DNA from: Acidobacteriota bacterium
Lineage (GTDB): Bacteria; Acidobacteriota; Holophagae; Acanthopleuribacterales; Acanthopleuribacteraceae
Length of the DNA stretch: 64,000 bases
Assembly (NCBI GenBank): GCA_020439745.1
Contig: JAGQSC010000019.1
Location: 372,001-436,000, forward strand
Direction of reading: 5' to 3'
Part shown: positions 11,109 to 13,996 of the stretch, piece after piece
How the letters are laid out: every line of letters starts with the position of its first letter
Position numbering within the stretch: position 1 is the stretch's first letter
The notes under the pieces: model-generated
Databases searched by the model: none
The model's input: only the letters and a program-made list of their open reading frames with translations
What the model was told of the DNA's origin: nothing
Program-made: the position numbers and the translations under genes

Positions 11109-12263
11109 CTAATTTTTTTCGGAAACCGAAACAGAATGGACGAGGAAACCGGACTCTTGGGCAATCACCAGCTTCCGAGTTCCCATAAACAACGCACAGT
11201 GGGCCTGCTCCAATCCGCCTGTCAGCCATGTATGTTCGAATTGAGGATAGGTTGTGAGCATCACGCGGTGGGGTGACGTAAAAGCTATCAACCCGGACTC
11301 GCCGGATCCAAAAACGCCGTCCATGTGAATTAGGCCTTGAGGGAAACCGCCCAATTCCCCCACATCAAGACGGTCCTCTTGTCTAACGGCCAGAAATACA
11401 CGGCCATCACCGGTAAGTATCAGAGCCCGGTCCTCAGCCACACCCAGTAACTGAGTCATGGGTACACCCAACTGGCCGGTCGACACGCTACCATCCTCCC
11501 AAAAAGCCAATTCCCCAGCGGCGGTGCCAGCGAAGATGCGATTTCCCGAAGGTGTGACTGCAAGGGTAGAGATGGGTGCCACCATGTCGACCAGTGGTGG
11601 AGTGGCATTGAGATTTGGGCCCATCATCAACAAGGAGCCATTTGTCCAGGCCCATTGACCTTGCAGGACAACAACCCGAGGGTAAATGGCGGTCATCGCC
11701 TCAGCTTTTTCTTGTCCGGAATCCATGTCCCACAGACGTACCATCCCCTGATTGTGTCCCGTCGCTATGATGGTCGCTTGGTCATTGACGGCTAAGTCGC
11801 AAATTGGGTCATTAGACCTGGTCAATACGCGAGCTTCACCATCGGCCCATTGGTTGAGGCTATTGTCGTCGCCCACAAAGAAGAACGACGAGCCCGTGCC
11901 GCGCCGTAAGATTTTGGCACTGTGATCGTCGAATGACGCCGCATTGTCGCTTTGGTACCTGATCTGGATCAGTCTGCCTTCAGGCTCTCGGAGAAATCCA
12001 TATCCAGCATCTCCAAATGTGCACGTAACGCCGGGCGGCAAAACCGCTTCTTGCTGCACTTCCAGTCCCGGTACACCCAAAAGAAAAAGGCTTTGTTGAT
12101 CGGACCGCGCAAACACCTGTTTTGAATCAGGCGAAAAGGAGATCTGTACTATGGCCCCAGATCGTGTCCCAAAGCGTGCAACACGCCGTAGACCGTCTAC
12201 CTCAAAAAGAAACAGATCTCCGCGCTCCGTACCCGCTGCTATGAAGGCATCAGACACGGACAA
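11109..12263 (-). CDS. WD40-like beta-propeller protein, probably the second half of the upstream kinase
   Basis: A 384-residue all-beta protein made of about seven blades of roughly 45 residues, with recurrent blade ends such as GMVRLWDMDSG, GELAFWEDG and GDLFLFEVDG. No signal peptide or catalytic motif is seen. It begins at a TTG codon only eight bases after the kinase stop and has no ribosome site. The reading frame is open upstream of the TTG through a run of nine A shared with the end of the kinase gene. Read there after a -1 shift, the two frames join with a propeller-like sequence (SLDEYGLITSLSVSD). So this is either translated by frameshifting, a separate coupled protein, or the product of a one-base error. 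Confidence 0.75.
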   Translation of the reverse strand: MSVSDAFIAAGTERGDLFLFEVDGLRRVARFGTRSGAIVQISFSPDSKQVFARSDQQSLFLLGVPGLEVQQEAVLPPGVTCTFGDAGYGFLREPEGRLIQIRYQSDNAASFDDHSAKILRRGTGSSFFFVGDDNSLNQWADGEARVLTRSNDPICDLAVNDQATIIATGHNQGMVRLWDMDSGQEKAEAMTAIYPRVVVLQGQWAWTNGSLLMMGPNLNATPPLVDMVAPISTLAVTPSGNRIFAGTAAGELAFWEDGSVSTGQLGVPMTQLLGVAEDRALILTGDGRVFLAVRQEDRLDVGELGGFPQGLIHMDGVFGSGESGLIAFTSPHRVMLTTYPQFEHTWLTGGLEQAHCALFMGTRKLVIAQESGFLVHSVSVSEKN

Positions 12264-12271
12264 TGAAGTGA

Positions 12272-13996
12272 TTAAGCCATATTCATCAAGCGATTGTTTA
12301 AATGAAGGCTTTTTTTTTCCGAAGTGATATCAAATACAGCCAGTTCATTGGCCTGATTGGTCGCCACGAGCCAGCGATCACTTTGATTGAACGCCAAAAG
12401 AGATAAACCGTTTTCTGCTGGCCATTGATAGATTCGAATGGGCTCATCCCAATTTGGCTCGCCACGCAGGAATAGTCCCCGTGCCGTTTGCAACGCGATC
12501 AACGCCTTTTTGCCATGAGCCGCCACAACGGTCTTTACGGGATCGGTCTGCCATCCTTCGCACATGTTCCACTGCACGGTTTGTTGCGATTCAAGATCGA
12601 CCAAGTTCAGCCAACAACCGCTATCTGTAACTGCAGCAAGCTGAGTTCCACCGCCACACAATGCCCCATCGTTCAACGAATTCAACTTGAAGCGTTTTGT
12701 GTCGACGGGATGGACCCAATCGACGATCTTCACAGTTCCATCCGCTTGTAGCAACACGAATTTCGATTTGTTGGGCACGAGCACGGGGTTCTTAATCAAA
12801 TTGGGATCTTCAAGCTGCCATTCGGTCTGTGGATGCCACACATCAAACAGGACCGGCGCTTCCCATTGAACGGTTGGCGTCACTGGTTTATCCGATCCAG
12901 ACAATAACATCACTACCAATGCAATGAGTGCAGCCAGGATGATCAATAGTGGCCATCGATACTCTTCCCACCATGGCCGCTTGGCTTGCACCATGGCTTC
13001 CATCTGTTGCCGGGTCACAATGGGATAGGACGAACTCGCCCAGGAGTCTTCTTCCGTTAAAACGCCCAGTGCTGACTTAAAGTCAGACATGGTTTGATGC
13101 CGCTCGTTTTTTTCTTTCATCAATGCGACTTCGATGCCTTTACAGATGTTCTCCGGCAAATCGTCGCGCTTGCTCGCGAGTGGTTCAGGAGGGTCCTTCA
13201 CCTGTTTCTTGATCAATTCAAAGAAACTAAAGCCATGGAAGGGAGGAAGACCCGTTACCATTTCATAAGCAAGTAATCCCATCGCGTAAATATCGGTTTG
13301 TGTCGTTATTTCCTGGTCTCGGCACTGCTCCGGGGCCATATACATCGGCGTTCCCATTAACTGACCCGTACCGGTTAACTTCAGACGCGTCGTCTCCAGT
13401 TCACCATGGGCAATATGGACCAGACCAAAATCGAGGATCTTCACCATGGGCCCACGTTTGGTTTGCTGCACCATGATGTTACTGGGCTTCAGATCTCGGT
13501 GCACAATGCCCTCAGCATGAACGGCTTGCATGGCGTCGCACATCTGGCCAAACAACCGAAGGAAAAGCGGAACAGGCATCCCATTGGGATGTTCGGCTTT
13601 CATGTACTCGCCCAGGTCCTGTCCGTCAATGAAGTCCATCACGATGAAGGGCTGACCAGCATAAACATCGTAGTCCACCACGCTCACCACGTGAGGATGT
13701 TCAATACGCGCAATGGCTCGAGCCTCGCGTTTGAACCGACGCAACGCCACTTCTCCATCGGATTCAACAGCCGCTATTCGTATGATCTTAATGACGAATT
13801 TCTTGTCCAACGACTTGTGGCGCACGAGATACACCAAGCCCATGCCACCCTGGCCTAACTCTCGCTCTACGACATACTTATCGCCGATGGTGACGCCTAT
13901 CAACGGATCGCGTGACGCACCTGATTCTTCCTGGCGCTGCCAAGCCACAGTTTCTTCATTCCCGTCAGACGGTTTATGAGGGTCTTTGTCAGGCAT
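12272..13996 (-). CDS. Ser/Thr protein kinase with transmembrane helix and C-terminal beta-propeller
   Basis: A 574-residue bacterial Hanks-type kinase. The kinase domain spans about residues 40-310 with the glycine loop GQGGMG (48-53), ATP-binding Lys70, catalytic HRDLKPSN (166-173) and DFG (189-191), so it should be active. A single membrane helix follows at about 350-366 after WWEEYRW. The C-terminal 190 residues are WD40-like blades facing the periplasm. These blades are too few for a closed propeller and stop abruptly at NRLMNMA. A run of nine A lies 20 codons before the stop, and the -1 frame continues directly into the downstream propeller ORF, giving a fusion of about 970 residues. 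Its substrates are unknown. Confidence 0.92.
   Translation of the reverse strand: MPDKDPHKPSDGNEETVAWQRQEESGASRDPLIGVTIGDKYVVERELGQGGMGLVYLVRHKSLDKKFVIKIIRIAAVESDGEVALRRFKREARAIARIEHPHVVSVVDYDVYAGQPFIVMDFIDGQDLGEYMKAEHPNGMPVPLFLRLFGQMCDAMQAVHAEGIVHRDLKPSNIMVQQTKRGPMVKILDFGLVHIAHGELETTRLKLTGTGQLMGTPMYMAPEQCRDQEITTQTDIYAMGLLAYEMVTGLPPFHGFSFFELIKKQVKDPPEPLASKRDDLPENICKGIEVALMKEKNERHQTMSDFKSALGVLTEEDSWASSSYPIVTRQQMEAMVQAKRPWWEEYRWPLLIILAALIALVVMLLSGSDKPVTPTVQWEAPVLFDVWHPQTEWQLEDPNLIKNPVLVPNKSKFVLLQADGTVKIVDWVHPVDTKRFKLNSLNDGALCGGGTQLAAVTDSGCWLNLVDLESQQTVQWNMCEGWQTDPVKTVVAAHGKKALIALQTARGLFLRGEPNWDEPIRIYQWPAENGLSLLAFNQSDRWLVATNQANELAVFDITSEKKSLHLNNRLMNMA
12310..12318 (-). other. A9 homopolymer, putative -1 frameshift (slippage) site
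   Basis: Nine T on the plus strand, read as nine A in the mRNA, near the end of the kinase frame. The codons are GAA AAA AAA AGC. A one-base backward slip gives AAA AAG CCT and opens a stop-free frame through the kinase stop into the propeller gene. Slippage by RNA polymerase or ribosome on A runs is well documented in bacteria. A missing base in assembly would give the same picture. Confidence 0.55.

Follow-up and report, generated by a model that had tools for sequence, protein, structure and literature searches.

Two described systems place the C-terminus of a bacterial protein in another reading frame beyond a poly-A run. In tssM of Citrobacter rodentium, an A11 run causes about 20% frameshifting, and both forms are needed (PMC4256274). 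A two-ORF dnaX is likewise known from other bacteria through the work of Antonov and co-workers, including nine cases at runs of ten A's (PMC3711429). In many bacteria, selection against runs begins to show at a length of nine nucleotides (PMC1088944), and the polymerase of E. coli slips less readily on A than on T runs (PMC6260861). The frame break in a receptor kinase gene described here, within a 64,000-nucleotide stretch of an Acidobacteriota genome (hereafter the window), belongs to this known kind of phenomenon. There is about an even chance that this gene, one by descent, was split by a recent natural indel at an A9 run, possibly leaky via slippage; the dnaX slip site of the same bacterial family is a firmer result than this frame break.

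The gene is read from the minus strand of the window, such that the nine T's on the plus strand at 12310-12318 are A9 in sense, within ACT TCG GAA AAA AAA AGC CTT CAT TTA AAC AAT CGC TTG ATG AAT ATG GCT TAA (Table 1). After the run, the -1 frame reads KKKPSFKQSLDEYG and remains open for 400 codons, across which the other two frames contain 18 and 19 stops, and a codon-usage signal is found on both sides of the run, on the same strand but in different phases. No ATG lies close to the beginning of the -1 frame, and the TTG at 12261-12263, from which an ORF runs to 11109, begins eight bases past the kinase stop with no Shine-Dalgarno-like sequence before it, by eye. Joining the frames yields a 962-aa protein in which the kinase is followed by a single predicted membrane helix and by 14 WD-like repeats, or approximately two propellers, for which KPSFKQSLDEYG is an example of a peptide spanning the junction. 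Re-reading the sequence bore out the original prediction of a kinase and a WD40-like ORF laid out in two frames around A9, with the second starting at a TTG that lacks a ribosome site eight bases past the kinase stop. The -1 frame proved uninterrupted, as expected, although the joined protein does not reach the suggested length of about 970 residues, and the kinase stop, which had been placed 20 codons past the run, is 12 sense codons past the K-K codons. The synonymous codon score of the -1 half (11109-12311) is low, at the 4th percentile, and is lowest in the first 100 codons past the run, a pattern compatible with weak expression or relaxed selection, without being decisive.

Table 1. Features of the split kinase gene, with positions in the window.
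Feature	Position	Strand	Basis
Frame-0 ORF: Ser/Thr protein kinase, membrane helix and first four WD-like repeats, 574 aa	12272..13996	-	ORF, Pfam
Protein kinase domain, residues 41-288	13133..13876	-	PF00069, E 6.5e-45, 154 bits
Single predicted transmembrane helix, about residues 349-365, PLLIILAALIALVVMLL	12902..12952	-	read from sequence
A9 run, frame 0 = GAA AAA AAA AGC; frame-change site	12310..12318	-	sequence
Frame-0 tail 3' of run, SLHLNNRLMNMA-stop	12272..12309	-	sequence
-1 frame continuation, 400 codons, ten WD-like repeats; first stop at 11109-11111	11109..12311	-	translation, Pfam, repeats
TTG-initiated mechanical ORF within -1 frame, 384 aa; without ribosome site or signal peptide	11109..12263	-	ORF list

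The kinase translation contains the HRDLKPSN and DFG motifs of the kinase domain in bacterial Hanks-type Ser/Thr receptor kinases, with one hydrophobic helix recognised by eye (~349-365), and WD or beta-propeller Pfam matches were found on the -1 frame (WD40, E 1.8e-7). The 14 ectodomain repeats, placed by eye at a spacing of 37-44 residues, begin in frame 0 in four cases and in frame -1 in ten; repeat 4 (residues 529-572) straddles the junction, beginning in frame 0 and finishing in frame -1 at a normal length. They would correspond to two seven-bladed propellers, with the first split 4+3, making the earlier description of a complete set of blades a fair one for the regularly spaced repeats of the joined protein. 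The downstream half has neither a signal peptide nor a membrane helix, by eye, and hence could not alone reach the side of the membrane expected of the ectodomain. AlphaFold predictions of the two ectodomain halves, run without an alignment, had mean pLDDT values of 47 and 46, which is insufficient for fold searching.

Kinase-propeller proteins are encoded in one frame, at 1005-1020 aa, in three genomes of the same family (G003 C1:7.05 Mb, G005 C41 and G006 C6). These are colinear with the joined protein in their kinase, membrane helix and WD-like repeat ectodomain, but differ in their single reading frame, are about 38% identical, and have the N-terminus MGLSDLWK. A profile of these relatives aligned to the joined protein as one domain, over residues 22-763 and across the junction at 561-563, scoring 343 bits, compared with 311 for the kinase by itself; it also matched each ectodomain half separately, the second weakly. 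With the profile aligned through the junction, a codon signal on both sides of it, and stops in the other frames, the frame break is beyond chance. No free-standing homologue of the downstream half was found in the seven family genomes. Judged from the sequences of the colinear single-frame relatives, the register of the repeats, the lack of an own start or export signal, and this lack of a free-standing homologue, the kinase ORF and the WD-like ORF that follows it are one gene by descent, the two halves sharing a common ancestry across a frame break in the assembled sequence. The relatives and the repeat register support the proposal that both ORFs encode one protein, and these single-frame homologues are indeed fused; the A run is not kept at the same place in them, as A9 was found in no relative. 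The N-terminus MGLSDLWK also occurs in a separate gene of this genome (G000 C60), and the single-frame relatives are therefore probably paralogous to the window kinase, rather than its syntenic orthologue.

The syntenic orthologue is found in the only same-genus genome, G001 (JAJCXM010000026.1, MAG Holophagae bacterium OFTM365), at L015:5552-6865 (G001:C26), between asd and a PspA-like gene. Its kinase and membrane helix are 76% identical to those in the window, and it has the same neighbours, but it is 437 aa long and lacks both the propeller and the A9 run. No propeller match was found anywhere in the G001 genome, and hence the kinase lives without a propeller ectodomain in this sister species. 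The G001 protein ends about 65 residues past the membrane helix, the whole propeller having been lost or never present. In two other genera (three genomes), the MGLSDLWK kinase has a propeller and measures 1005-1020 aa; in both genomes of the window's genus it is only 368-369 aa and has none (L016:1721, G000:C60; L017, G001:C8), which looks like a second case of sensor-domain loss.

In the genome containing the window, dnaX carries a run of ten A's at C17:254953-254962 (L094:2004-2013), and the run is exactly A10 in all seven family genomes, representing five genera (others at L102-L108). Frame 0 of the family's dnaX is open for only 388-420 codons, with A10 starting 11-16 bases before the stop; a further 136-183 codons follow in the -1 frame as a tau extension, conserved at the protein level in the seven genomes. 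The closing motif of these extensions matches the C-terminus of single-frame dnaX proteins from a sister family (E about 1e-4, in a 14-sequence search). Elsewhere in the class, dnaX occupies a single frame of 501-691 codons in 13 of 14 genomes, and in the fourteenth it runs off the contig. No RNA structure was found 3' of the family's dnaX runs. The combination that defines a two-ORF dnaX, in which frame 0 stops early, just past A10, and a conserved tau extension lies in the -1 frame, is present in 7/7 family genomes. This conservation indicates that RNA polymerase slippage on A10 is very probably used in the family, and that tau would need recoding at the conserved slip site, suggesting that the whole family depends on poly-A slippage. 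Therefore frame breaks at A runs in these bacteria are not to be classed automatically as pseudogenes. The direction of slippage in dnaX is that which the kinase would need, and because the family's dnaX is built around such a slip site, slippage is biologically credible at the kinase and a leaky rescue plausible.

Across the genome, A9 and A10 runs occur at about 20 sites, most of them intergenic. The A10 run within a gene is that of dnaX; A9 is in frame at C60:133390 and just past the start in L092, and in G001 it is in frame inside three intact genes (L126, L128 and L134). The two true cases of A9 in coding sequence, against 2.6 expected from synonymous shuffles, do not indicate depletion, albeit from small numbers; strong slippage on A9 in this genome would lead one to expect otherwise. 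The apparent frame changes close to runs at c63:201649 and c60:322799, like the candidate breaks at L130 and L141 of G001, were rejected as ordinary gene boundaries or starts.

In the preferred reading, the product of one receptor-kinase gene would have its Ser/Thr kinase in the cytoplasm, one membrane helix, and in the periplasm an ectodomain built from about 14 WD-like repeats. This gene would have undergone a recent one-base natural indel at a mutable A9 run, in an ectodomain with which the genus can dispense. The main product would be the 574-aa kinase with an ectodomain stub, while RNA-polymerase (or ribosome) slippage on A9 could yield some full-length 962-aa receptor. A real and recent indel is our inference, as is the occurrence of slippage, some leakage at the kinase A9 being likely on general grounds. 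An indel is favoured over a programme because the run is unconserved, the G001 orthologue has no propeller, and A9 is tolerated in frame elsewhere. Counting against a recent indel, all 400 codons of the kinase's -1 frame are free of further lesions, and therefore either the mutation is young or the frame is still used; if unselected, the break would date to less than roughly 2% neutral divergence, under an assumed indel:substitution ratio of 0.05-0.1.

Alternatively, the gene may truly be single-frame, with one base in error in the assembly or consensus. Homopolymers are the classic site of such errors, the G003, G005 and G006 relatives are in one frame, and the genome is a 65-contig assembly with the read type not given. 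However, 0/197 orthologues were split between frames relative to the same-genus genome (212 kb aligned; 393 kb of G001), in a test that found 36/60 planted frameshifts (60%), and dnaX is resolved exactly as A10 in all seven family genomes, which speaks for long A runs having been read correctly in the assembly. Given these observations, and the other A9 runs that are in frame, the break is more readily taken as real and an error as unlikely; the assembly looks sound, with no general sign of indel errors. Phase variation, with replication slippage toggling the ectodomain among cells and the assembled genome representing an 'off' state, would accord with an intact C-terminal half and with a homopolymer in the gene for an exposed part of a receptor, a class with known slipped-strand phase variation (PMC3711429), but is quite improbable, A9 being short for a contingency tract and dnaX having the only comparable break among the coding runs of the genome. 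A two-gene arrangement, in which reinitiation at the TTG would start the second product, is highly improbable: the proximity of this codon to the kinase stop would permit reinitiation, but it has no ribosome site, its product would remain cytoplasmic with 3+7 blades for want of a signal peptide, and no free-standing homologue was found in the seven family genomes. This reading was rejected on the missing start signal and the repeat that straddles the junction, which the profile alignment also crosses.

Functional slippage, whereby A9 is kept and one gene makes both the short kinase and the full receptor, is unlikely. It would operate through transcripts with altered numbers of A's, or through -1 ribosomal slippage on A AAA AAA, as for the gamma and tau forms of dnaX. 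This heptamer is in frame 0, the -1 frame is intact, A10 with a -1-frame tau occurs throughout the family, tssM is a close precedent (PMC4256274), and A9 is within the range of A/T runs, of about eight or more, associated with programmed poly-A slippage (PTR). The conservation that marks PTR is nevertheless missing, as the run and frame change are absent from both G001, which has no propeller, and the single-frame relatives. Nor is the heptamer accompanied by the stimulator of a programmed -1 ribosomal frameshift: no Shine-Dalgarno-like sequence was seen by eye upstream of A9, and a stimulatory RNA structure 3' of the run was rejected on fold z-scores of -0.68 and, in the 60 nt that follow the site, +0.31. 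Furthermore, the short form would have an incomplete propeller, with four of seven blades, A9 is not depleted in coding sequences and is found in frame in intact genes, and a singleton frame break is more often due to mutation or error (PMC3711429). With the run unconserved and no stimulatory structure, the original prediction that programmed slippage generates two receptors is not supported as such. It is rather unlikely that transcriptional slippage on A9 decides whether the ectodomain is added or omitted, so that a full sensor and a short kinase both arise from one gene, as dnaX does for its own products in the family; were slippage used, a single kinase gene would give rise to some receptors that have a complete sensor and others that lack one.

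Even if the break is a mutation, it exemplifies the loss of sensor domains from receptor kinases with the kinase retained, as in the same-genus relative. Compared with described systems, the gene resembles tssM1 of Citrobacter rodentium (PMC4256274) in the stop shortly past a poly-A run, the C-terminal domain in another frame, and the potential for short and full-length forms, whereas tssM1 encodes a membrane secretion protein rather than a kinase, has A11 rather than A9, and slips in a manner experimentally shown and required for function. The two-ORF dnaX (PMC3711429), including that of the window's family, differs in that its A10 is conserved across five genera and is followed by the stop within a few codons, where the kinase has an unconserved A9 and a stop 12 codons on, but shares with it the poly-A run, the frame-0 stop soon after, and the C-terminus encoded in the -1 frame.
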